Part shown: one piece after another, positions 15,730 to 18,031 of the stretch
Position numbering within the stretch: position 1 is the first letter of the stretch
Layout of the letters: every line of letters starts with the position of its first letter
Assembly (NCBI RefSeq): GCF_002753895.1
Contig: NZ_NJER01000001.1
Coordinates: forward strand, 558,001 to 622,000
Source: Halobacteriovorax sp. JY17
GTDB taxonomy: Bacteria; Bdellovibrionota; Bacteriovoracia; Bacteriovoracales; Bacteriovoracaceae
Direction: 5' to 3'
Length of the DNA stretch: 64,000 nt
Notes under the pieces: model-generated
What the model was told of the DNA's origin: nothing
What the model saw: only the letters and a program-made list of their open reading frames with translations
Databases searched by the model: none
Translations under genes and position numbers: made by a program

Positions 15730-15747
15730 TACTTTGTGTACAAAGTA
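15730..15747. promoter_or_regulatory. OhrR-type operator, copy 1
   Basis: TACTTTG-TGTA-CAAAGTA, perfect 7-bp inverted arms with 4-bp centre, 21 bp from the ohrR start. Confidence 0.7.
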
Positions 15748-15791: not shown

Positions 15792-15804
15792 AATGGAGGT
15801 TTTT

Positions 15805-16353
15805 ATGGAAAACTTATTAGAAGTAAATTTTAAAAATAAAAATGGTGAGAGTGTAAGTTTAAAAGATTTTAAAGCGAAGGCCTATCTCATTGTAAATGTC
15901 GCTTCTAAGTGCGGACTTACACCTCAGTATGAGGGCCTACAGAATTTATATACAGATTATAAAGAAAAGGGATTAGAAATCTTAGGTTTTCCTGCTAATG
16001 AATTTCTAGCTCAAGAGCCGGGAACAAATGAAGAGATTCAAAGCTTCTGCTCGCTCACTTACAATGTCACTTTTCCTGTTAACGAGAAGATCGTTGTAAA
16101 AGGTGAGGGACAACATAAACTTTTTCATGAGCTCACAAATTCAGGTGTAGATTATACAAAGAACGAAGAGGGTAATTTTGAAAACCTTCTTACTGAAAAA
16201 GGTCTTATCTCAGGTGCTGCCCATGATATTAAGTGGAATTTTGAAAAATTTCTTGTCGATTCTTCTGGTAAAGTTGTGGCTAGATACTTTCCTGATGTAG
16301 TTGCAGGTGATGAGAGACTTAAGGCAGATATCCTAAGACTCTTGAATTCTTAA
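15805..16353 (+). CDS. Glutathione peroxidase-family (probably thioredoxin-dependent) peroxidase
   Basis: A 182-residue protein. ATG at 15805 has GGAGG 5 nt upstream. Peroxidatic Cys36 is in NVASKCGLTPQY, Gln70 in FLAQEPG, and the Trp-Asn pair in IKWNFEKFLVD. The usual FPCNQF motif reads FPANEF, so the middle Cys is absent, but Cys82 (IQSFCSLTYNVTFP) corresponds to the resolving Cys of thioredoxin-dependent members. It reduces peroxides, including organic ones, which fits its position under the OhrR-type operators. It is cytoplasmic (no signal peptide). Confidence 0.93.
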   Translation: MENLLEVNFKNKNGESVSLKDFKAKAYLIVNVASKCGLTPQYEGLQNLYTDYKEKGLEILGFPANEFLAQEPGTNEEIQSFCSLTYNVTFPVNEKIVVKGEGQHKLFHELTNSGVDYTKNEEGNFENLLTEKGLISGAAHDIKWNFEKFLVDSSGKVVARYFPDVVAGDERLKADILRLLNS

Positions 16354-16388
16354 GAATTTTAATAGTAAACCAAAAAGCTAAAGTATTT

Positions 16389-16425
16389 AACCTACTCCTC
16401 CGATAACTTAGAAAAGGAGTAGGTT
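16389..16425 (+). promoter_or_regulatory. Hairpin sequestering the ribosome site of the cupredoxin gene
   Basis: Perfect 10-bp arms AACCTACTCC (16389-16398) and GGAGTAGGTT (16416-16425) with a 17-nt loop. The 3' arm contains GGAG that serves the start at 16426. There is no T run, so a simple terminator is less likely. Confidence 0.6.
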
Positions 16426-16863
16426 ATTAAGAAAATAGCATTATTACTCACATTCATGATGGCCTTCAATAGTTATTCTTTAGAGGATACCTATTTACAA
16501 GGCGAAAAGTTTGATAATCCTGAGAGATTGCAGTCGGTGATTGTAACTCATGAGGGCTTTTATCCTAAAGTTATTCAGCTCTTCAGTGGTGAGACATTGA
16601 GGCTCTTTGTCACCTCAACAACCAATAAACCTAGTTGTTTAACTATTCCACAAAAAAGTATCTTTCTCTCGGCAAATAAAGGTCAAGTGACTGAAAGTAC
16701 AGTCGTTTTCCCCCGCCCAGGAGTCTATGAAGTCAACTGCCCAGTTGGTGGAATTAAGGGAAAAATAGTCGTTCAAGAGCATCCTCTGGTTCGTCGTGAG
16801 CGTATTAGAAGAGAGATCGCCTCTGAAAAAAGAGTAAAGATTTGGCGTCCAAGAGACGAATAG
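16426..16863 (+). CDS. Secreted cupredoxin-like protein with apparent ATT start
   Basis: 145 residues if translation starts at ATT 16426. That start gives a textbook signal peptide (KKIALLLTFMMAFNSYS) and GGAG 6 nt upstream; TAG at 16420 forbids an earlier start, and the first ATG (16456) has no ribosome site and would remove the basic N-region. Residues ~36-118 form a cupredoxin-like sandwich (FYPKVIQLFSGETLRLFV, then GVYEVNCPVGGIKGKIVV). Cys71 and Cys105 are present but no classical His-Cys-His-Met copper set is seen. The tail is Arg-rich. It lies 34 bp before the tadA-like gene. Confidence 0.75.
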   Translation: MKKIALLLTFMMAFNSYSLEDTYLQGEKFDNPERLQSVIVTHEGFYPKVIQLFSGETLRLFVTSTTNKPSCLTIPQKSIFLSANKGQVTESTVVFPRPGVYEVNCPVGGIKGKIVVQEHPLVRRERIRREIASEKRVKIWRPRDE

Positions 16864-16897
16864 TAGGTGTAGAATAGACTTTTAACAGAGGGTTAGA

Positions 16898-18031
16898 ATG
16901 TCATCAGTATTTAGTGATGCTATATCATCTTTTCTTGCACCGATTGTAGATCTTCTTGAAGATGAAGGCGTTTCTGAAGTAATGATCAATGGACCTAGTG
17001 AAATCTTTGTAGAAAAGAAAGGTCTTGTCTTTAAAGTTCCAAATACATTTCATAGCGAAGACGCATTGATATCTGCCATGAGAGCAATTGCTCAATCAGT
17101 GGGAAGAGTCTTTGACGACGATAACCCAAGGCTCGATGCGAGACTTCCTGATGGCTCTCGTATTCACGCAGTTCTTCCTCCAATGTCCAAGAATGGAACG
17201 ACTGTTGCCATAAGAAAATTTTCTAAAGAAAGTTTAACTATTAATGATTTAATAAAATTTGGTTCTTTATCAAAAGATGCGGCCAGATTCTTAGATATTT
17301 GTATTTATCTTGGAAAGAACTTAATTGTCTCAGGTGGGACAGGTTCTGGTAAGACGACAATGCTAAATGTTCTGGGCTCAAGAATTCCAAAAACTCAGCG
17401 CTTGATTATTATTGAAGATGCAGCGGAACTTCAAGTCGATGCTGAACACGTCGTAAATTTTGAAACAAGAAAAGCTGACCCAAGTAAAGGTGTTAATGAA
17501 GTTACCATTAGAGATCTAGTGATTAGTTCTATGAGACTTAGGCCGGATAGAATTATTGTAGGGGAAGTTAGAGGGGAAGAGGCCCTCGATCTCATTCAAG
17601 TGATGAACACAGGTCATGATGGCTCAATGGGGACTGTCCATGCTAATAATCCTGAAGATGCCTGTACTAGACTGGAAACTCTATGCTTAATGGGTGATAC
17701 GAAGATTCCACCAGATGCTGTAAGAAAAATGGTGGGCTCGGCCATGCAAATCGTTGTTCAATGTAGTCGTTACCACGATGGTGGTAGACGAACTTCACAT
17801 ATTTCGGAAATTATCGGCCTCGATAATCACGGTAATTATATTAGTAGAGATATCTTTCGTTGGGTTCAAACGGGGAAAGATCCTGAGACAGGAAAGTATA
17901 TTGGAGAGATGGTTGCTTGTAATTATGTTCCAACTTTCTTTGAAGATATCGTAGTGAATAAGCTTCCATTTCCAAAGAGTAATTTTATCTCGCCTGATTG
18001 GCTTAATAAAATGAAGAAGGATGCTGCTTAG
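16898..18031 (+). CDS. TadA/CpaF-family secretion ATPase
   Basis: A 377-residue hexameric ATPase of the type II/IV secretion superfamily. Walker A GGTGSGKTT is at residues 146-154, the Asp box LIIIEDAAEL at ~169-178, Walker B with RIIVGEVRGEE at ~218-228 and the His box TGHDGSMGTVHANN at ~240-253. CpaF-type ATPases power Flp/Tad pili or related assembly. None of the partner tad/cpa genes is adjacent, so this is an orphan or a second copy. GAGGG precedes the ATG. Its stop shares TTAG with the convergent small gene. Confidence 0.93.
   Translation: MSSVFSDAISSFLAPIVDLLEDEGVSEVMINGPSEIFVEKKGLVFKVPNTFHSEDALISAMRAIAQSVGRVFDDDNPRLDARLPDGSRIHAVLPPMSKNGTTVAIRKFSKESLTINDLIKFGSLSKDAARFLDICIYLGKNLIVSGGTGSGKTTMLNVLGSRIPKTQRLIIIEDAAELQVDAEHVVNFETRKADPSKGVNEVTIRDLVISSMRLRPDRIIVGEVRGEEALDLIQVMNTGHDGSMGTVHANNPEDACTRLETLCLMGDTKIPPDAVRKMVGSAMQIVVQCSRYHDGGRRTSHISEIIGLDNHGNYISRDIFRWVQTGKDPETGKYIGEMVACNYVPTFFEDIVVNKLPFPKSNFISPDWLNKMKKDAA

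Follow-up and report, generated by a model that had tools for sequence, protein, structure and literature searches.

A conserved AUU start codon and a sigma28-type promoter set within an inverted repeat ahead of a cupredoxin-like gene in Bacteriovoracaceae

A gene for an exported cupredoxin-like protein, found in a 64,000-nt window (the whole stretch of DNA analysed, in which all positions below are numbered) that occupies C1:558001-622000 of a 3.47-Mb genome, almost certainly begins with AUU at position 16426, a type of start codon that recurs among its orthologues in the family. We put at roughly 0.6 the probability of the whole reading that we favor, i.e., that the gene opens a FliA-driven cupredoxin-cpaF operon, that the AUU start sets its translation low, and that in one clade a hairpin masks its ribosome site on RNA reading through from upstream. 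The features on which this reading rests are collected in Table 1.

Table 1. Positions of the features described, in window coordinates
Feature	Position	Strand	Remarks
gpx, glutathione peroxidase gene	15805..16353	+	Possible source of read-through RNA
FliA (sigma28)-type promoter	16379..16406	+	-35 TAAAG 16379-16383; 16-nt spacer 16384-16399; -10 CCGATAA 16400-16406
5' arm TAACCTACTCCT	16388..16399	+	Wholly within the promoter spacer; 8/9 core positions the same in three genomes
Repeat loop	16400..16414	+	Contains the promoter -10 and the predicted (inferred) transcription start, ~16412-16414
Shine-Dalgarno AAGGAG	16414..16419	+	From the sequence and contexts in the orthologue alignment
3' arm AGGAGTAGGTTA	16415..16426	+	Spans the Shine-Dalgarno sequence, the gap and the first base of ATT
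TAG	16420..16422	+	Shuts out an earlier start; identical in L002 and L003
ATT start codon	16426..16428	+	ATT/ATC/ATA kept in 28/95 orthologues
Secreted cupredoxin-fold protein	16426..16863	+	145 aa plus stop; PF13473, model and fold match
cpaF/tadA-type ATPase gene	16898..18031	+	Starts with ATG; follows the cupredoxin gene in the conserved pair

Results

The AUU start codon and its conservation

The ATT codon, rechecked in the window sequence, follows the Shine-Dalgarno (SD) sequence AAGGAG at a proper spacing of 6 nt, and the frame that it opens translates as (I/M)KKIALLLTFMMAFNSYS-LED, the beginning of a signal peptide. No earlier start is available because an in-frame TAG stands two codons before the ATT, followed by GTT at 16423. 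Downstream, the first in-frame NTG is the ATG at 16456, the first codon of an ATG ATG pair (16456-16461), and a start there would leave little of the signal peptide, so that no NTG gives an intact N terminus. The first-pass annotation of this DNA had proposed the ATT start with its upstream ribosome site, the block to earlier starts by TAG and the lack of any NTG yielding a signal peptide, and all three points hold. A sequencing error or an oddity of a single strain is excluded, since both the ATT and the preceding TAG are also present in L003 and in L002, the nearest orthologue.

We sought the protein in 129 genomes of the family Bacteriovoracaceae, where it was present in 108, and read 106 loci; for 95 orthologues we assigned a start, by hand, from the SD, its spacing and the signal peptide. 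Beyond the family, the search found distant homologues only and no orthologues. The assigned starts are ATG (57), ATT (21), GTG (8), ATC (5), ATA (2) and TTG (2), and those of the ATT/ATC/ATA class (ATH in DNA, AUH in RNA) stand at the equivalent place in 28 species belonging to 10 genus groups (g1, g4, g9, g13, g18, g19, g25, g35, g47, and g48). That annotation had named ATG at this place in orthologues as evidence against the ATT start; ATG does occur in the 57 orthologues counted above, but L002 and L003 have ATT. ATT, ATC, and ATA all encode isoleucine, and interchange among them is by itself no proof of a start. The context of these codons is alike throughout, with GAGG or GGAG, about 5 to 7 nt, often TT, the ATH codon, and then a codon for Lys, Asn, or Arg. 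In 18 of the 28 AUH genes, the stretch from the predicted transcription start to the ATH codon contains no NTG, and neither do the 8 codons after it, while the remaining 10 have an NTG nearby, which makes their start less certain.

In a protein tree from which the signal peptide was left out, the AUH genes are confined to one half, where they make up 28 of 54 rows, and the AUH class changes 9 times, compared to 24.5 times in shuffles, on a tree in which many forks are unresolved. ATG, GTG, or TTG is used in 67 of the 95 orthologues, and a low-efficiency start is therefore not essential to the family.

As a control, 460 kb of the window's own genome was compared with 400 kb of the sister genome G043, which gave 284 pairs of orthologous ORFs; some of these are shadow ORFs, and genes whose SD is weak are absent from the set. 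An SD-supported NTG is conserved in 157 of these pairs, and this gene alone has a convincing conserved ATH start; ATH starts as a general habit of the genome were rejected within the 460 kb, where 5 of the 284 pairs were flagged and 4 of these dismissed by eye. For a positive control, we read 30 infC genes from other genomes of the family (loci L125 to L154); most begin with ATT, ATC, or ATA after an SD, and such starts are thus in use in these bacteria. Autocontrol by IF3 through the infC start codon is probably general in the family.

A sigma28-type promoter upstream of the ribosome site

Upstream of the SD lies the motif TAAAG-N16-CCGATAA, which the first-pass annotation overlooked. A promoter score of at least 10 out of 12 was reached in 71 of the 95 orthologues, compared to 16 of 282 control genes from the window's own genome examined with the identical scanner, and the promoter element therefore belongs to the gene; all 28 AUH genes reach this score. 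A strict promoter pattern gave 14 matches versus 4 for the reversed pattern. The genome encodes a true FliA (271.6 bits, against a cut-off of 189.6), and the motif agrees with TAAAG-N15/16-CCGATAA, as expected of a FliA promoter. In Bdellovibrio, the attack-phase promoter consensus TTAAG-N16-CCGATA has been ascribed to FliA (PMC3627812), and the TAD pilus operon is under FliA control (PMC5430801); the promoter described here resembles these FliA attack-phase promoters in both consensus and 16-nt spacing (PMC3627812, PMC5430801). Altogether, the results make it very probable that the sigma28 promoter is used. Judging from the usual spacing of sigma28 promoters, transcription should start at about 16412-16414, and the mRNA from this promoter should carry a leader of some 13 nt, AAAGGAGTAGGTT, with little beyond the SD itself.

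A cupredoxin-like protein encoded next to a CpaF-type ATPase

The product carries a signal peptide and matches PF13473. Its structural model (pLDDT 85.5) has a cupredoxin beta-barrel fold, and the best Foldseek match in the PDB is 4hcg, the Cupredoxin_1 domain of a B. anthracis protein (E = 5.5e-10). Type 1 copper is bound by two His, one Cys, and usually Met. The orthologue alignment contains two invariant candidate ligands, Cys70 and Cys104, and no invariant His, and a normal type 1 copper site is therefore absent. A conserved C-terminal tail, REIASEKRVKIWRPRDE, was also observed.

A CpaF/TadA-type ATPase gene lies downstream in all 106 loci read, at a median gap of about 10 nt. Its start codon, as picked automatically, is ATG in 84 of the 106, and the few ATH codons picked seem to be artefacts of the alignment. 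The cupredoxin-cpaF pair (16426-18031) stands away from other pilus genes in the window; unlike the TAD operon of Bdellovibrio, it is a stand-alone pair, in Bacteriovoracaceae.

An inverted repeat spanning the promoter and the ribosome site

The promoter and the ribosome site are both overlapped by an inverted repeat that is perfect over 12 bp, with arms TAACCTACTCCT and AGGAGTAGGTTA and a loop of 15 nt. The first-pass annotation had correctly described this repeat as perfect, with GGAG in its 3' arm, although it gave a length of 10 bp. RNA folding of the repeat yields a z score of -3.0, i.e., 3 standard deviations better than shuffles. The repeat is single-copy in the genome, ruling out a repeat family, and no annotated RNA family or riboswitch was matched in Rfam within the window. 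To gauge the chance level, we looked for perfect repeats reaching the ribosome site in 153 SD-led genes within 460 kb of the same genome, and found repeats of at least 9 bp in 3 and of at least 10 bp in 2. A repeat at the ribosome site is unusual (about 1 to 2%) and not unique; the conserved ATH start, the sole convincing case among the 284 ORF pairs, is rarer. Repeats with a 15-nt loop seemed enriched in the window's own genome, but as a special class they were not upheld in a second genome.

The promoter spacer contains the whole 5' arm, and the loop contains the -10 element. A transcript begun at this promoter is thus expected to be without the 5' arm, which leaves longer, read-through RNA as the only kind on which the hairpin could act. 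In folding calculations for L001 to L003, opening the region from SD to start costs 17.4 to 17.7 kcal/mol in the long RNA versus 3.2 to 8.4 kcal/mol in the short RNA; in the short RNA of the window's own species the SD is free and the start codon can still pair downstream, so that the site is not fully open.

A candidate source of the longer RNA is gpx, which runs in the same direction and ends 34 nt ahead of the repeat, with no terminator-like site predicted between the two by a terminator scan. Its start at 15805 is preferred over one at 15793 because GGAGG precedes the former. Between gpx and a MarR-type gene on the minus strand (15272 onward) lies a dyad, TACTTTGT-GT-ACAAAGTA (15730-15747), which by eye resembles the operator of a peroxide-responsive regulator of the MarR/OhrR type.

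When the orthologues were compared, the hairpin of the first-pass annotation was borne out in three of them, L001 (12 bp), L002 (11 bp), and L003 (9 bp); the other 92 have no repeat of at least 9 bp that pairs the promoter region with the SD, and a 9-bp repeat close to the start in L063 does not go beyond shuffles. The hairpin was thus rejected as a family-wide feature. The three genomes form one clade in the protein tree, and gpx is directly upstream in exactly these three and nowhere else among the loci read; the link between gpx and hairpin accordingly counts as one evolutionary event. A tracking of the hairpin with same-direction upstream genes in general was not upheld: by heuristic gene calls, most other orthologues have a long same-strand ORF upstream and no hairpin. 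Taking these observations together, we consider the chances about even that the hairpin masks the ribosome site on read-through RNA.

Alternative explanations for the repeat and the start

One alternative accepts the AUU start as genuine and conserved but denies the repeat any function in RNA, its pairing being a chance event or a by-product retained in one young clade. The restriction of the repeat to three related genomes would suit this explanation, as would the existence of other orthologues that manage without a hairpin below same-direction upstream ORFs and of similar repeats in 2 of 153 other genes of the genome. We nevertheless regard it as unlikely, since the arms are far better kept than silent sites while adjoining spacer and loop bases have changed. 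Across L001 to L003, 8 of the 9 positions of the 5' arm and all 6 of the SD-to-start gap are the same, compared to 31% of fourfold degenerate sites and 1 of 7 positions in the stretch from -10 to SD; with 31% taken as the neutral rate, the chance of at least 8 of 9 identical positions is about 5 in 10,000. By this comparison of aligned sequences, both arms are conserved in the three hairpin genomes beyond the level of silent sites. The 3' arm is invariant among the three, and no covariation was found.

The repeat might instead act in DNA, as a dyad flanking the -10 element that serves as the operator for a regulator of the sigma28 promoter. It is indeed centered on the -10 region, and its arms are conserved as DNA, but pairing with the SD accounts for the 3' arm, no second copy of the dyad exists in the genome, a separation of 15 nt between the arms is unusual for operators, and there is no adjacent regulator gene except for the MarR-type gene beyond gpx. 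An operator function thus appears rather improbable.

The model put forward in the first-pass annotation, in which tight translational control results from AUU together with a hairpin that sequesters the ribosome site of the main mRNA, is very improbable. The hairpin would be stable in any RNA containing both arms; however, the conserved promoter crosses the repeat, so that the main mRNA, beginning at about 16412-16414, should lack the 5' arm, and most orthologues with an AUH start have no hairpin.

It is also very unlikely that the repeat is the terminator of gpx, even though it lies 34 nt downstream of that gene and no locus read without the repeat has gpx upstream. Intrinsic terminators consist of a G+C-rich hairpin followed by a T-run. 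Here neither strand has a T-run after the repeat (the tail is TTATTAAG), and the terminator scan did not report the repeat, whose loop is long and whose arms extend over both the SD and the start.

Finally, translation from ATG 16456 with an untranslated AUU frame upstream is scarcely credible: although ATG ATG is the first in-frame NTG, the scan found no SD before it, the signal peptide would be lost, 28 species share the AUH context, and L002 has TTA in its place, which rules out this alternative start for that species.

Discussion

In the reading that we favor, AUU would be the start of the leading gene in a cupredoxin-cpaF operon driven by FliA and, being discriminated against by IF3, would keep cupredoxin translation low, below that of the co-transcribed, ATG-started cpaF. 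By analogy with cvfC1 and ccpN of S. aureus, such a start may yield a small fraction of the translation obtained with AUG, and by analogy with sigR of Streptomyces it may respond to IF3. The sigma28 promoter would supply a leader of about 13 nt that is unable to form the hairpin; RNA entering from gpx, if made, would hold both arms and fold into a 12-bp hairpin over the SD and start, with no translation as the presumed outcome. For the three species that have gpx upstream, this would mean that the cupredoxin is made only when FliA initiates at the gene's own promoter, putatively in the attack phase. A more tentative proposal, and one that we hold to be possible at most, is a promoter-embedded lock, in which the sigma28 spacer doubles as the anti-SD arm so that only FliA-derived RNA could be translated, with AUU as a second, IF3-dependent brake; an exported protein of the hunting stage would thereby be kept both off and low.

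AUH start codons are found in infC and pcnB of E. coli. In S. aureus, cvfC1 and ccpN have conserved AUU/AUA starts, from which expression in poor medium was about 10% of that from AUG (PMC13009471). The present gene is like all four of these in that its AUH codon follows a good SD and is kept in relatives, and like cvfC1 in that this codon belongs to the first gene of an operon; it is unlike them in encoding an exported cupredoxin, in belonging to Bacteriovoracaceae, and in having a sigma28 promoter with a predicted minimal leader. The sigR gene of Streptomyces has a conserved GTC start repressed by IF3, which sets a low dose relative to its operon partner (PMC5472188). A conserved non-canonical start on the first gene of an operon is common to both systems, and a comparably low dose is what we propose here; they differ in the codon (AUU versus GTC) and in the partner, which is cpaF instead of an anti-sigma factor.

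The layout of the hairpin has its closest counterpart in phage T4, where the ribosome sites of gene e, soc, 49, and I-TevI are masked: RNA from a stage-specific promoter has no 5' arm, longer upstream RNA forms the hairpin, and the lysozyme of gene e is made only from late promoters (PMC2988022, PMC3014915). Here, too, the SD is in the 3' arm of a hairpin that is stable in the long RNA, and, by position alone, a proximal promoter is placed such that its transcript is predicted to lack the 5' arm. Unlike the T4 genes, this one is on a bacterial chromosome, is predicted to depend on FliA instead of phage late transcription, and starts with AUU; moreover, the spacer between -35 and -10 is itself the 5' arm, and the long RNA and the block to translation are putative. 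A described bacterial case of a promoter inside a hairpin was not found in the literature searched, which does not prove that none exists.

Two further repeats over ribosome sites were observed outside the window. In the window's own genome at C1:489298-489338 (locus L174, 9298-9338), a 13-bp perfect repeat, ATTTACCTCTAAA/TTTAGAGGTAAAT, has an SD in its 3' arm immediately 5' of the GTG start of a gene for an AurF-like protein, and in the orthologue of G043 the equivalent place is occupied by a different repeat of 9 bp, TCTAATATT/AATATTAGA; this gene possibly represents a second masked ribosome site. At about C1:458440-458500, a 10-bp repeat, TATATACTCC/GGAGTATATA, lies over the SD of a gene for an AhpC-like peroxiredoxin, and G043 has TACTCCT/AGGAGTA at the SD of this gene.

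To our knowledge, conserved starts other than AUG, GUG, and UUG are limited to a handful of genes; such starts are missed by gene finders. The AUU start looks like a further case of this known class, to which it adds a conserved AUH start found in 28 species and linked to a predator-stage sigma factor, with infC of the family as a yardstick. The promoter-inside-hairpin layout, if it works as we infer, looks like something new on a bacterial chromosome: should the mask prove true, bacteria too, beyond T4-like phages, would use a promoter spacer as an anti-SD arm against the translation of read-through RNA.
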